Assembly (NCBI GenBank): GCA_902795095.1
Contig: CADBKB010000025.1
Coordinates: 1 to 16,529, forward strand
Length of the DNA: 16,529 bases
Direction: 5' to 3'
Source of the DNA: Oscillospiraceae bacterium
GTDB lineage: Bacteria; Bacillota_A; Clostridia; Oscillospirales; Oscillospiraceae
The notes under the pieces were generated by a model. The model had not been told where the DNA came from and made no database searches. It worked only from the letters and a program-made list of their open reading frames with translations. Each line of letters begins with the position of its first letter. Position 1 is the stretch's first letter. The translations under genes were made by a program, and so were the position numbers. Shown here piece by piece: positions 1-12,215 of this stretch.

Positions 1-337
1 ACATCCGCCCGCCTGCACCGCGCCCGTAGGGGCCGATGCCTACACCGGCCCGTTGGGGACCATCGATGCCCTGCCGGATCAAATCGGCAGGCACGGGCGC
101 ATCTGGGGATGCGCCCCTACGGCGATTCCGTCCGCAGGGGCCGAACTCGAAGAGTCTCGAATATATGCCCACTTCGGCCCGTTGGGGACCATCGATGCCC
201 TGCCGGATCAAATCAGCAGGCACGGGCGCATTTGGGGATGCGCCCCTACGGCGTTTCCGTCCGTAGGGGCGGATGCCCACATCCGCCCGCTTGCTCCGCA
301 CCCCTTGGCTCCCTGCGCGCAGTGCATTTTCGGCGGG
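1..337. repeat. Non-coding region packed with 27-bp palindromic repeat units
   Basis: No gene is supported here. The stretch holds several copies of a 27-bp imperfect palindrome that begins GTAGGGGCG and ends CGCCCG or a close variant. Copies lie at 26-52 (+), 95-120 or so (-), 223-249 (-) and 263-289 (+), and a truncated unit reaches the window edge at 1-11. The frames that stay open on the plus strand here are rich in Arg, Pro, Gly and Ala and follow the repeat, so they are not genes. The same family recurs at 7224-7462. The region lies downstream of the 338-1771 gene (minus strand), and I see no clear T-rich terminator in it. Confidence 0.85.
46..270. repeat. 96-bp direct repeat, two copies (46-141 and 175-270)
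   Basis: Positions 46-141 and 175-270 match over 96 bases with four substitutions and no gap, at an offset of 129 bases. Each copy contains one 27-bp palindrome in minus orientation, a CTGCCG/CGGCAG inverted repeat (broken by one base in the second copy) and a palindrome-type left end at its 3' border. The 33 bases between the copies are unrelated. Two copies with substitutions do not make a CRISPR array. A recent local duplication of a repeat-containing block fits best. Confidence 0.9.
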
Positions 338-7129: not shown

Positions 7130-7578
7130 TGAACCCGCCGCTCTTTTTTGCGACCGAATCGCACCGTTTTCCCCAAAATCGCCCGCCCCGCGGGTGCGGC
7201 GGTTGACGGAAGCCCGACGCAAGCGGGCGGATGTGGGCATCCGCCCCTACGGGTGCAGCGGTATTTTGCGGGCCGGTTCTTACGGGTGCGGATTTTCGTA
7301 GGGGCGCATGCCCACATGCGCCCGTGCACGCCGAATTGCTTCCCATAGATACCGTTGGTTCCGCAACAGGTGCGGCGCAGGCGGGCGGATGAGGGCATCC
7401 GCCCCTACGGGTGCGGCGGATGAGTGGAACCGCCCGTAGGGAGGCGTCCCCTGACGCCTCCGTGCGCGCCGATTTGACCGGCGGGGGAAGCTATTTTCCT
7501 TTTGAAGGGCCGCGGCCCTTCGGGCCTTGCAGTGACGTGCGCACCGCGGCGGCAATTTCCCGGGGAATGGGAATGTAA
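7130..7578. repeat. Repeat-rich intergenic region between divergent operons
   Basis: No gene is supported. Four 27-bp palindromic units of the family seen at 1-337 lie at 7224-7250 (-), 7298-7324 (+), 7382-7408 (-) and 7436-7462 (+). The last is a variant with a different stem, GGAGGCGTC/GACGCCTCC. Several are bordered by GGGTGCRGCG or GGGTGCGG, so the flank is part of the repeated block. An unrelated perfect 18-bp palindrome follows at 7504-7521. The frames open across this region are repeat-driven and lack ribosome sites. Confidence 0.85.
7504..7521. repeat. Perfect 18-bp GC palindrome
   Basis: GAAGGGCCG is followed directly by its reverse complement CGGCCCTTC. There is no loop and no T-tract after it on the plus strand, and only four A bases precede it, so it is not a good terminator. 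It lies about 90 bases upstream of the response-regulator -10 element. Its role is unknown; a dimeric-protein binding site or cruciform is possible. Confidence 0.6.
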
Positions 7579-7620: not shown

Positions 7621-7639
7621 GGAAGTAAGAAATAATGAT

Positions 7640-7652
7640 GGGAGGAGTCCCC

Positions 7653-7655
<3 letters not shown>
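7640..7655 (+). promoter_or_regulatory. Ribosome binding site that selects a GTG start
   Basis: GGGAGGAG (7640-7647) followed by five bases and GTG (7653) is an ideal initiation region. Two in-frame ATG codons (7635 and 7638) abut or overlap this site and have no comparable site of their own, so translation most likely begins at the GTG. Confidence 0.8.
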
Positions 7656-8336
<681 letters not shown>

Positions 8337-8339
8337 GGC

Positions 8340-9764
8340 ATGAAAACCATGTTCAGCCGTCAGTTTGCCCTGACGGCGAGCCTGATCATTCTGAGCGTGC
8401 TGCTGCTGGGCCTGGCCTTCCGGGTGTTCATCGGCCGCTACGCCGCCGAGACCGCCCGGCAGACCCTGGAGCACAACGCCGACGTCATCACCGACCTGGC
8501 CGCCGCCTACGATTCCACCGACGCCCTCGGCGCCAGCTGGGACGTGCGCATCAATCTCTCCTTTGCCTCCACCGTGGCCGATACCAACGCCGTCATCTGC
8601 GACAGCACCGGCACGGTGATCGTCTGCTCCTGCAGCACCGTGCTGTGCGAGCACATGGGCAAGCAGCTGGAGGCGGACCTGGTCCGCCAGGTCATGGAGG
8701 AAGGGTTCCATTCCGACACCGCCGTCGTCGCGCCGCTGTATCCCGAGGAGCGCTATCTCGTGGCGGAAAACGTCATCTCCCGGGCCTCGAATGAATCCAT
8801 CGGCCTGGTGCTGGTGTCTTCCCCCACGGCCCAGACGCGGGAGGTGGTCGCCCGCACCACGGACTTCTTCCTCATCACGGGCCTGGTGGTTCTGCTGCTG
8901 GCCATGCTGGCGGTGTCGCTGCTGGCCCGCTCCATCAGCCGGCCCCTGGCCGATATGGCCTCCGCCGCCCGCCGCTTCGGCCACGGCGAGCTCGAAACCC
9001 GCGTCGCCACCGGCGGCAGCAACACCGTGGAGATGGACGAGCTGGCCGTCGCCTTCAACAATATGGCCCAGTCCCTGGAGAAATCCGAGCGCCAGCGCCG
9101 GGAATTCGTGGCCAACATCAGCCACGAGCTCAAAACGCCCATGACCACCATCGCCGGCTTTATGGACGGCATGCTCGACGGCACCATCCCGCCGGAGCGC
9201 CATCCCCAGTACATGCAGGCGGTGTCCGACGAGGTGCGGCGGCTGTCGCGGCTGGTGCGGGGCATGCTGGAGACCTCGCGGCTCCAGTCCCAGGGCATCC
9301 CCGACGCCCGCAAGCGGGTATTCGACGTATGCGAGAAGGCCGGGCAGGTGCTGCTGAGCTTCGAGCAGAAGATCAACGCCAAGGGCCTGGCGGTACAGGT
9401 GGATATGCCCGACGAGCCCGTGGAGGTCTTCGCCGAGGCCGACTCCATCACCCAGGTGCTCTACAACCTCATCGACAACGCGGTGAAATTCTCCGACGGC
9501 TCCCTCGGCCTGCGGGTGGTCCGGGAGGACATCAAGGTCCTCGTCACGGTTTCCAACTCCGGGCCCACCATCCCGGAGAGCGAGCTTTCGCTGATTTTCG
9601 ACCGCTTCCACAAGACCGACAAGAGCCGCTCCGCCGACCGCGACGGTGTGGGCCTGGGCCTGTATATCGTGCGGACCATCATTCTCAGCCACGGCGAGGA
9701 TATCACCGTCACCAGCCGCGACGGCGTGACCGCCTTCACCTTCAGCCTTTCCGTGCCGAAGTAA
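8340..9764 (+). CDS. Sensor histidine kinase with cysteine-rich extracellular domain
   Basis: This 474-residue membrane kinase should phosphorylate the regulator encoded just upstream. Order: membrane segment (about 10-31), extracellular sensor domain (32-175), second membrane segment (176-197), HAMP (198-250), HisKA with phosphoacceptor H262 in NISHELKTPM, then an ATPase domain with N-box NLIDNAVKF (376-384), FDRFHKTDKSRS (420-431) and G2 GVGLGLYIV (436-444). There is no PAS domain, unlike WalK. The sensor carries C87, C96, C98, C103 and H105 in a short span (C-x8-C-x-C-x4-C-x-H), which could bind metal or form disulfides. The ribosome site is weak, consistent with coupling to the preceding gene. 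Confidence 0.95.
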   Translation: MKTMFSRQFALTASLIILSVLLLGLAFRVFIGRYAAETARQTLEHNADVITDLAAAYDSTDALGASWDVRINLSFASTVADTNAVICDSTGTVIVCSCSTVLCEHMGKQLEADLVRQVMEEGFHSDTAVVAPLYPEERYLVAENVISRASNESIGLVLVSSPTAQTREVVARTTDFFLITGLVVLLLAMLAVSLLARSISRPLADMASAARRFGHGELETRVATGGSNTVEMDELAVAFNNMAQSLEKSERQRREFVANISHELKTPMTTIAGFMDGMLDGTIPPERHPQYMQAVSDEVRRLSRLVRGMLETSRLQSQGIPDARKRVFDVCEKAGQVLLSFEQKINAKGLAVQVDMPDEPVEVFAEADSITQVLYNLIDNAVKFSDGSLGLRVVREDIKVLVTVSNSGPTIPESELSLIFDRFHKTDKSRSADRDGVGLGLYIVRTIILSHGEDITVTSRDGVTAFTFSLSVPK

Positions 9765-9815: not shown

Positions 9816-11036
9816 ATGTATGATGTGAATTACGATGAATTTGAACCCGTCGGGCAGCCGGACGGCGGCACCTATTCCACCGCCATGCCCACGCGAAAGC
9901 GCCATGTGGGCCTGGCCGTCGCGGTGAGCCTGCTGGTGATCCTCCTGTGCGCGGCGATGACCGTCATCAGCCTGTTCACGGTGCGCGTCGAGCGCAGCGC
10001 GGGCGGGACCAGCTTCATCTTCACCGAGCGCAGGGCCGACGCGCCCGCGGACGAGGCCGAGCTCCCCGCACTGCCCGCCGAGACCCCCGGCACCGAGCAG
10101 ACCGTCGCCACGGAGATCCACCGGAGCGACGACGATACGCTTTCGCTGTCGGAGATCTACCGCAAGGTGGCGCCCAGCGTGGTCTCCGTGGTATGCGCCG
10201 TGGAGCCCGTGCCCCTGGATCGCAGCGGCATCATCCTGTCCGAGGAGGGCTATATCGTCACCAGCTGCAGCGTGGTCCGGGGCACCGGTCCCATCACCGT
10301 GCTGCTGTCCGACGGCACGGAGTGCCCCGCCGTGGCGGTGGGGGGCGATCCCCTGTCCGATCTGGCGGTGGTGAAGATCGACGCCGAGGGCCTGACGCCC
10401 GCGGAGCTCGGCGACAGCGACGCCCTCGCGGTGGGCGAGCAGGTGCTCTCCATCGGCGACCCCCGCGGCCTGGAGCTGCGCGCCGCCATGACCGACGGCA
10501 TCATCTCCTGCATCAGCCGCGATCTCGAGCTGGACGGCCGCACCATGACCGTCCTGCAGACCAACGCCAACCTGCCCGCCGGCGGCTACGGCGGTCCCCT
10601 GATCAACATGCGGGGCCAGGTGGTGGGCATCAACGCCGAGCACCTCGGCACCTTCGCCAGCTCCGCCGGGAATCTCGGCCTGGCCGTTCCCATCGGCGAG
10701 GCGCAGAACATCGTCGATGAGCTGATCGACCACGGCTATATCCCCGGCCGGCCCTCCCTCGGCGTGTCCGGGCAGAGCGTCAGCGACACCGCCCAGGCCT
10801 ATTACCACCTGCCCGCCGGCGTCTATGTGGAGGAGGTCACCGTCGACGGCGCCTGCGACCGGGCCGGCATCCGGGTCGGCGACATCATCACCGCCATCGA
10901 CGGCGCGGCGGTGCACAGCTTCGACGAGCTGGAGCGTGTCAAGAACCGCTATAAATCCGGCGATACCGTCACCGTCACCGTCTACCGCAACGACCAGATC
11001 ATGAATGTGACCCTGACCCTCGACACGATCCGATAA
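9816..11036 (+). CDS. HtrA/DegP-like trypsin-PDZ membrane protein lacking catalytic His and Ser
   Basis: This 406-residue protein has the layout of Firmicute HtrA: short cytoplasmic N-terminus, one membrane segment (about 31-54), a linker, a trypsin-like domain (about 112-305) and one PDZ domain (about 312-403, with GVYVEEVTVDGACDRAGIRVGDIITAIDG). Aligned to DegP, the catalytic His of TNNHVV is S152 in GYIVTSCSVV, and the nucleophile of GNSGGPL is Y258 in AGGYGGPL; only the Asp (D182 in DPLSDLAVVKI) remains. It is very unlikely to cleave peptides as a classical HtrA. Five cysteines (C127, C151, C170, C232, C347) fall in the outer part, one beside the lost His. It is the third gene of the two-component operon, 51 bases after the kinase, with a weak AGAGG site. 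Binding or chaperone-like sensing is inferred. Confidence 0.93.
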   Translation: MYDVNYDEFEPVGQPDGGTYSTAMPTRKRHVGLAVAVSLLVILLCAAMTVISLFTVRVERSAGGTSFIFTERRADAPADEAELPALPAETPGTEQTVATEIHRSDDDTLSLSEIYRKVAPSVVSVVCAVEPVPLDRSGIILSEEGYIVTSCSVVRGTGPITVLLSDGTECPAVAVGGDPLSDLAVVKIDAEGLTPAELGDSDALAVGEQVLSIGDPRGLELRAAMTDGIISCISRDLELDGRTMTVLQTNANLPAGGYGGPLINMRGQVVGINAEHLGTFASSAGNLGLAVPIGEAQNIVDELIDHGYIPGRPSLGVSGQSVSDTAQAYYHLPAGVYVEEVTVDGACDRAGIRVGDIITAIDGAAVHSFDELERVKNRYKSGDTVTVTVYRNDQIMNVTLTLDTIR

Positions 11037-11053
11037 TCCCGCCAAGGCATACG

Positions 11054-11147
11054 GACGTGCCGCAAACCGCGCGAATCCGTCATTCCGGCCGGTGACCGAC
11101 CTCACCGGGCCAGCGATGACCGCACGGTTTGCGGCACGTCTTTTTTT
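11054..11147 (+). terminator. Large hairpin terminator after the HtrA-like gene
   Basis: GACGTGCCGCAAACCG (11054-11069) pairs perfectly with 11125-11140 and is followed by seven T (11141-11147). The 55-base interior can fold further: GTCAT (11079-11083) with ATGAC (11116-11120), and CCGGTGA (11089-11095) with TCACCGG (11102-11108). It starts 17 bases after the HtrA-like stop and ends 72 bases before spoIIP. It should end the two-component operon; its large size leaves room for an attenuator or small RNA end. Confidence 0.85.
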
Positions 11148-11219: not shown

Positions 11220-12215
11220 ATGAAGCAACACAGGCTCAATCGCAGCCTGCGGGACCGATCCGTCGTTGCGGGGCTGTGGCTGATGCTGCTGGCCCTCTGC
11301 CTCCGGCTGACCCTGGCCTGGCCCGGCCGGGCGCCGGAGCTGCGCCCGGTGCGCCGGGCCCTGTTCCTGGCGGGCCAGTGCCTGCGCGCCTCGCAGGTCA
11401 CCGAGGAGACCGCCTCCGAGCGCGTGGAAAAGCCGGAGAAACCGCCCAAGCAGGCGCGCGCCGCGCCGCAGCCGCAGTTCACCGATCGGGAAGCAGAGGC
11501 CATCGCCATTGACGGCGGCGAGGATAACGCCCTGGATACCGCCTCCCTGCTCCTGGCGCCCCTGCGCCTGCACACGGAAACGGACCCCCTGGTCCTCATC
11601 GTTCATACCCATACCTCCGAGGCCTATACGCCCGAGCCGGGCTGGGAATATGAGCCGTCGGATGAATATCGCACCCGGGATCCCGCCCACAGCGTGGTGC
11701 GGGTGGGAGAGGCGCTGGCGGAGGAGCTGCGCCGCCTGGGGGTGGGGGTGATCCACGACCGCACCGTCTGCGACGACCCCGACTATGACAGCGCCTATGA
11801 CCGCAGCTGCGACGAGATCGCCGCCCAGCTCGCGGCCCATCCTTCGCTGCAGATCGTGCTGGACCTGCACCGGGACGCGGTCCCCGGGGGCACCGCGGAC
11901 ACTGTCCGCCTGGACGGGGAGGACTGCGCCCGGCTCATGCTGGTGGTGGGCACCGACGCCGGCGGGCTGGAGCACCCCAACTGGCAGGAAAACCTCTCCT
12001 TCGCCCTGAAGCTCCAGGCCCTGCTGAACCGGTCCAGCCCGGGCATGTGCCGGGATATCTCCCTGCGCTCCGCCCGGTTCAACCAGCATTTTACCCCCTG
12101 CTCCGTGCTGGTGGAGATGGGCACCGCGGACAATACCCTCGCCCAGGCCCTGCCCACCGCCCGCCGTCTGGCCGGCGCCCTGCGGGAGCTGATCGATCTG
12201 AGCGAGCCCGTGTGA
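11220..12215 (+). CDS. spoIIP: Stage II sporulation protein P (SpoIIP), peptidoglycan amidase/endopeptidase
   Basis: A membrane-anchored cell wall hydrolase that works with SpoIID and SpoIIM during engulfment of the forespore. Membrane anchor at about 14-34, a charged Pro-rich linker (60-90), then the amidase domain. Landmarks are LIVHTHTSEAY (126-136, metal ligands H129 and E134 expected), VLDLHRDA (213-220, H217), the NLSFALKLQALLN...PG segment (258-275), RFNQHFTPCSVLVEMGTADNT (286-306) with E299. At 331 residues it is shorter than the roughly 400-residue Bacillus subtilis protein, mainly in the N-terminal linker. The ATG at 11220 has GGGAG 12 bases upstream; a nearer ATG at 11212 stops at once. 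A sigma-E promoter is expected, but I could not identify one with confidence. It appears to be monocistronic between two terminators. Confidence 0.95.
   Translation: MKQHRLNRSLRDRSVVAGLWLMLLALCLRLTLAWPGRAPELRPVRRALFLAGQCLRASQVTEETASERVEKPEKPPKQARAAPQPQFTDREAEAIAIDGGEDNALDTASLLLAPLRLHTETDPLVLIVHTHTSEAYTPEPGWEYEPSDEYRTRDPAHSVVRVGEALAEELRRLGVGVIHDRTVCDDPDYDSAYDRSCDEIAAQLAAHPSLQIVLDLHRDAVPGGTADTVRLDGEDCARLMLVVGTDAGGLEHPNWQENLSFALKLQALLNRSSPGMCRDISLRSARFNQHFTPCSVLVEMGTADNTLAQALPTARRLAGALRELIDLSEPV

Follow-up and report, generated by a model that had tools for sequence, protein, structure and literature searches.

A predicted HtrA-type pseudoprotease with a conserved cytosolic tail in a two-component operon of Oscillospiraceae

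Introduction

Membrane-anchored HtrA proteins like HtrA, HtrB and HtrC of Bacillus subtilis consist of an N-terminal transmembrane segment, a trypsin-like domain and typically one PDZ domain, and in several Gram-positive species two-component genes (CssRS, YycFG) lie upstream of the anchored HtrA (PMC12826053, accessible part). DegS and AlgW are PDZ-gated, membrane-anchored sensor proteases, and DegS transmits its signal through cleavage of an anti-sigma factor (PMC12826053, accessible part). Pseudoproteases derived from HtrA have been described before. When 91 prokaryotic genomes were surveyed, 42 of 966 serine proteases from five families were listed as inactive homologues (PMC2605481, in excerpt), and inactive HtrA-type domains occur in plant Deg proteins (PMC3473262, in excerpt). 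MamO is HtrA-derived, has a degenerate active site and performs non-catalytic work beside its active paralogue MamE (PMC4794232, in excerpt), and PflC of Campylobacter jejuni combines an HtrA fold and PDZ domains with a lost triad in a genome that encodes an HtrA with the triad elsewhere (PMC12222027, in excerpt).

Here we analysed a 16,529-nt stretch of DNA from an Oscillospiraceae bacterium (the window), in which an HtrA-type gene follows a two-component pair. In contrast to the Gram-positive anchored HtrAs with their Ser-His-Asp triad, its product lacks the Ser and the His and carries a fixed cytosolic motif, and unlike DegS it is without the residues needed for cutting. MamO differs in its proteobacterial origin, the Thr at its nucleophile position, its metal site and its TauE-like domain, whereas PflC is a periplasmic flagellar scaffold with an atrophied cleft region, for which the accessible part of PMC12222027 mentions no two-component operon. 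The protein adds a Gram-positive example that has an operon and a tail of its own and whose intermediate stages are preserved. The open-licence literature (titles and abstract openings) yielded no report of this pseudoprotease clade, and nothing was found there on HtrA combined with a two-component system in Oscillospiraceae.

An HtrA fold without its catalytic residues

The features of the locus are as follows.

7635..8336, + strand: OmpR/PhoB-type response regulator, first gene of the operon (Pfam Response_reg and Trans_reg_C)
8340..9764, + strand: membrane-bound histidine kinase resembling WalK/PhoR, whose sensor domain is extracytoplasmic and of alpha/beta type (HAMP, HisKA, HATPase_c)
9816..11036, + strand: predicted HtrA-type pseudoprotease, 406 aa, ATG start, frame undamaged
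9828..9848, + strand: NYDEFEP, residues 5-11, core part of the motif that the pseudoprotease clade has fixed in its cytosolic tail
9906..9971, + strand: transmembrane helix, residues 31-52 (AlphaFold helix and sequence)
10224..10631, + strand: trypsin-like domain, residues 137-272 (Pfam Trypsin_2, E 4e-27)
10269..10271, + strand: S152 (AGC) at the catalytic His position, by alignment
10359..10361, + strand: D182 (GAT), catalytic Asp retained, by alignment
10587..10589, + strand: Y258 (TAC) at the catalytic Ser position, GGYGG versus GNSGG, by alignment
10752..11021, + strand: PDZ domain, residues 313-402 (Pfam PDZ_2, E 4e-17; block pLDDT 91-98)
11053..11147, + strand: strong hairpin with a T run between htrA and spoIIP, a likely terminator of the operon (MFE -59.9 kcal/mol)

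The encoded protein has the architecture of an HtrA-type protein, with an N-terminal transmembrane helix followed by the trypsin-like and PDZ domains, and since a basic RKR precedes the helix, its N-terminus probably lies inside the cell. Pfam, PDB sequences and the predicted fold all place it in the HtrA/DegP family by descent (S1C fold), and the AlphaFold model matched DegP, DegS and AlgW. All 17 NCBIfam models that matched did so below their cut-offs, including degP_htrA_DO (221 versus 416 bits) and the MamO model NF040961 (54.2 bits versus a cut-off of 800).

S152, D182 and Y258 align at the His, Asp and Ser columns of the relatives, and HMMER alignments to DegP/DegQ-type chains from the PDB agree, confirming what had been proposed from the sequence alone. 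The protein thus has neither the His-Asp-Ser triad nor the GNSGG motif of active HtrA/DegP. Also lost are Gly136, Asn150, Asn254 and Asn257, catalytic-loop residues conserved in 100% of 32 intact relatives (hand-picked from the 121 aligned rows described below). Among the outer histidines, H306 is retained in 12 of 13 members of the window's subclade and in 5 of the remaining 25 proteins, and each of the others in at most two of the 13 subclade members. The substitutions are clean, as had been claimed, and the gene is not broken: the frame is undamaged in the window and is open in two further genomes (G001 and G105) as well. The protein database, which lists predicted proteins, offers no such test. 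With its fold kept, its triad lost and its gene retained across lineages, the protein appears, on the grounds of sequence and structural model, to be a true HtrA pseudoprotease that has kept anchor, fold and PDZ domain.

The triad was lost within one clade

A protein search returned 1513 matches (from at least 7997 candidates), of which the best 120 were aligned with the query to give 121 rows, one of them identical to the query. Among these rows the triad is altered in 64, and the remaining 57 are all H-D-S. The substitutions are not a matter of chance, as the 63 rows grouped with the query each have an altered triad too, and the sequence-only reading was right to expect no intact triad among close relatives, as the 61 best-ranked matches (P0002-P0062) are all altered. 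Among the matches listed, the first intact row is P0063, with 46% identity over 98% of the query; a few intact rows there reach 50-52% identity, over shorter stretches only. A second search with this intact protein as query added 92 further proteins, all H-D-S.

At position 258 the 64 altered rows carry Tyr (53), Phe (7), Cys (2), Ala (1) or Ser (1), so that Tyr or Phe accounts for 60 of them. His is present at its site in 41 rows, another residue takes its place in 21 and the alignment has a gap in 2, and the Asp is kept in 61. The row with Ser at 258 (P0011) has Ser at the His site and is still altered; a chance return of Ser is the simplest reading.

In a quick tree of 75 tips, which included 44 of the 64 altered rows and left out the catalytic columns, the altered proteins formed one clade of 46 tips (44 rows and two loci) with an SH-aLRT of 100. 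A clade produced artefactually by shared loss columns was rejected, as a quick tree built without the active-site loops retained it (39 of 62 tips, SH-aLRT 99). The minimum number of changes on the trees was two for the Ser, and four (75-tip tree) or three (62-tip tree) for the His, suggesting that the Ser was probably lost once at the base of the clade and the His later and repeatedly. The direction of change, from intact to altered, follows from the intact state of the sister. An origin separate from MamO and other HtrA pseudoproteases is very likely.

Within the family, 112 of 250 genomes had an HtrA match at 1e-60, and when the triad was read in the 30 best loci of those genomes, it was altered in G001 and G105 and intact in the other 28. 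A clade-member query matched only these two at 1e-75 among 400 family genomes, a sample that overlaps the 250; G001 and G105 are the sole two genomes of their genus in the genome set.

Cysteines in and around the dead site

The outer part of the window protein contains five cysteines (127, 151, 170, 232 and 347). The count given earlier, C151 and four others, was correct, whereas the view that C151 is odd for an HtrA did not hold: Cys is the commonest residue at this position (25%) in the 32 intact relatives, and we rejected it as a special feature. Among the best 120 matches and the query, 56 of the 62 altered rows that can be read at positions 136 and 137 have a Cys at one or the other, as against none of 57 intact rows, in which these positions are Gly-Thr/Ser. 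This clade-common Cys could possibly provide a disulfide, a metal site or other new chemistry in the dead site. It also raises the idea that the clade is still enzymatic with a relocated nucleophile, for which the His retained in 41 of the 64 altered rows could be cited; we regard this as very improbable, as the window protein has Arg136 and Ser137 (window 10221-10226), no Cys there and no His at 152.

A conserved cytosolic tail that probably preceded the loss

The altered subclades share an N-terminal tail consensus, NYDEFEP...GG-x-YST-[AG]-x-P. Of 61 altered rows (P0003-P0062 and P0084), 60 carried the pattern, the exception being P0017, whose N-terminus is absent; of 150 others it occurred in 3, namely P0063 and P0242 (both intact) and P0098 (altered, with a deletion). 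P0063 is the sister of the clade in both trees, and P0242, which is 76% identical to P0063, lies outside the trees; among the rows of both searches these are the only intact ones with the motif. Because two intact rows near the clade carry it, the tail probably arose before protease activity was lost. Taken together, graded states seem to be preserved in living proteins: intact with the tail, Ser lost with His kept, and both lost.

In groups hand-picked from the 121 rows for the tail and loop comparisons, tail identity between altered subclades was 0.58-0.80, versus 0.49-0.61 for the core, and tail identity between intact groups was 0.27-0.28 (in gappy alignment columns), versus 0.55-0.65 for the core. 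These identities among intact groups, together with the pattern counts, led us to reject an ordinary HtrA tail. AlphaFold assigned the tail a pLDDT below 50, as expected for a short linear motif. A DNA pattern for YDEFEP had six matches in 300 family genomes, four in unrelated frames and two in HtrA genes, one each in G001 and G105. No second tail-bearing protein was thus found in the 300 family genomes, and hence no hint of a partner.

Outer domains evolve under weaker constraint

Compared with the nearest genome (L001), htrA had a dN/dS of 0.53, the kinase 0.19 and the regulator 0.04, and two intact htrA pairs gave 0.12 and 0.25; these whole-gene values were computed on stop-to-stop frames and so extend over some codons upstream of the start. 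When the first 90 aligned codons were left out, the values were 0.65 for htrA and 0.13 and 0.22 for the intact pairs. The fold, PDZ domain and anchor had been described as intact and well conserved, and all three are indeed present, whereas with a dN/dS of this size the protein is well conserved only in a relative sense. Rough regional values against L001, from short stretches, were 0.12 for the tail (residues 1-28, 27 codons), 0.08 for the transmembrane helix, 0.86 for the linker, 0.54 for the protease domain and 0.63 for the PDZ domain, so that the PDZ is less conserved than the tail. The HtrA identity between window and L001 was 69%, versus the 83% (SD 3.6) predicted from kinase identity, and in the other two clade pairs it was 54 versus 73 and 51 versus 72 expected; the prediction is based on 91 non-independent pairs of 14 intact loci.

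In three intact groups the active-site loops exceeded the core in conservation by 0.09 to 0.14; for four altered groups the difference ranged from -0.06 to +0.04, with +0.06 in a seven-row subset and -0.10 in one pair. The loops have lost their extra constraint in the altered groups. Between window and L001 they are the best-kept part of the outer domains (55/64). A dead cleft turned into a newly constrained surface was rejected: the loops-minus-rest difference was 0.007 over ten members (reached by 136 of 294 circular shifts) and 0.063 over seven members (51 of 294). Constraint on the outer part is reduced without being absent, and the fast evolution of this part fits relaxed constraint as well as it fits a new function.

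The high dN/dS, the excess divergence relative to the kinase and the ordinary loops are what one would see in a relic that erodes slowly while selection is relaxed and that persists as a passenger of its operon. We consider this distinctly improbable, given the open frames in the window, G001 and G105, the strong constraint on tail and transmembrane helix, short as these stretches are, and a core that is about as similar among members of altered groups (identity 0.67-0.84, one pair 0.89) as among members of intact ones (0.68-0.78).

The operon is older than the pseudoprotease

As noted previously, htrA lies directly behind the sensor kinase on the same strand, with 51 nt between the kinase stop (9764) and the htrA start (9816). 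Among 20 family regions, one of them from G105, 14 had a regulator and a kinase upstream of htrA; in one of the other six the kinase was cut by the contig end, and five had neither gene in the available stretch. Because HtrA is intact in 13 of the 14 loci with this order, the arrangement is inherited and predates the loss, and the place behind the kinase is consequently no evidence for a new sensing role. The claim that the protein reports to the kinase, which had been argued from adjacency, was therefore not supported on that ground.

Linkage was also assessed indirectly by size matching between two lists of the best 120 HtrA and kinase matches, in which 13 pairs agreed exactly in the size of the longest contig, nine of them altered proteins from every subclade, versus a mean of 1.3 and a maximum of five pairs with shifted values. 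In G105 (L077), kinase and htrA are separated by an additional gene that encodes 410 aa and contains repeats.

A direct role as accessory sensor, binding misfolded peptides or wall fragments and signalling to the neighbouring kinase through the transmembrane helix or the tail, nevertheless has several points in its favour: the kinase is the immediate neighbour in the window and in L001 and lies a single inserted gene away in G105, the nine size-matched altered proteins point indirectly to linkage with a kinase orthologue, and the tail would lie on the same side as the kinase signalling domains. We hold it to be possible and yet doubtful, since the gene order is the same where HtrA is intact, the kinase sensor domain looks alike with an intact or a dead HtrA, and the 410-aa gene separates the two in G105. 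A related and slightly more doubtful proposal is an accessory receptor subunit of its own two-component system, in which PDZ domain and dead cleft would read envelope peptides and the tail would inform the kinase or another partner; if true, a protease would have been converted into a receptor, and its living relatives would still show the steps in between.

The kinase model (AlphaFold, 15 sequences, mean pLDDT 80) had a WalK-YycH model as its best Foldseek match. For the response regulator, the best NCBIfam models, MtrA (242 bits) and YycF (233 bits, with a cut-off of 340), both scored too low to pass. The YycF model did not single it out as WalR: the G001 orthologue ranked second of 12 (231 versus 242 bits).

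Intact paralogues and the proposed function

G001 and G105 each encode two further HtrAs with intact triads, 34-41% identical to the pseudoprotease, and the window's organism presumably has such paralogues too, judging by these sister genomes. Three of eight genomes with an intact orthologue had no second HtrA at E 1e-30. Spare HtrA copies may have permitted triad loss, although the sample is small. A regulatory subunit of the intact paralogues, acting through mixed trimers or by activation, would have precedents in MamO, which activates MamE without catalysis (PMC4794232, in excerpt), and in plant Deg7, whose inactive domain is involved in trimerization (PMC3473262, in excerpt). Even with two intact HtrAs in each sister genome, we judge it unlikely, the paralogues being only 34-41% identical to their supposed partner.

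The explanation we favour, as a probable though far from certain one, is a membrane-anchored binding pseudoprotease, encoded by the third gene of an ancestral response regulator-kinase-HtrA operon. The lineage would first have fixed the cytosolic N-terminal motif (NYDEFEP...GG-YST) and then lost the nucleophile (Ser to Tyr or Phe), with the His lost later in some branches, including that of the window. On the outer membrane face, the PDZ domain and the trypsin-fold cleft could hold unfolded or C-terminal peptide clients as a holdase or receptor, the tail could dock a cytosolic partner, and proteolysis would be left to the intact HtrA paralogues. Made under the two-component system, such a protein would absorb part of the stress on secretion or the envelope and in this way dampen kinase signalling, much like engineered inactive HtrA in B. 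subtilis. Within this explanation we infer the order of events, client binding, the tail partner and the kinase effect; direct control of the kinase would be a guess. With the inactive B. subtilis variant (S260A), htrA promoter activity was below that with wild-type HtrA, and yield and fitness were better, from which the authors inferred retained chaperone activity (PMC10715036, in excerpt). This variant comes closest to a working model of how a pseudoprotease behaves within a two-component circuit.

A graded natural clade beside an old two-component operon would allow direct tests of non-cutting HtrA roles, and of whether HtrA talks to the neighbouring kinase. Labels such as 'serine protease' on such genes of gut Oscillospiraceae can mislead about activity.

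Additional features of the window and related loci

A spoIIP-like sporulation gene (11220-12215) lies downstream of the operon and is present in L001 too; it had no match in the 20 family regions, some of which end shortly after htrA. Its membership in the operon is unlikely, as the terminator-like hairpin (z -8.0, equal stability in 0 of 200 shuffles) separates it from htrA. In the kinase sensor domain, residues ~87-107 contain a cysteine cluster (VICD...VCSCS...CEH), possibly a metal or redox site; in an alignment of 15 kinases, encoded beside intact as well as dead HtrAs, its C96 and C103 each reach a conservation of 90% or more. The inserted 410-aa gene of G105 (L077 4648-5880) has a Cys-rich N-terminus and tandem repeats that may be RCC1-like. 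A tyrosine-kinase-like neighbour in L001 (229-2817) carries in its tail a tandem repeat of approximately PVRETPVQAPKREIEQK, with masked bases inside. The left end of the window and the region 5' of the operon are intergenic in appearance, and a 47-nt repeat with the core GGGCG..CGCCCCTACGG occurs in four copies in the window (85-131, 214-260, 7215-7261 and 7373-7419), two of which sit within a 109-nt duplication.
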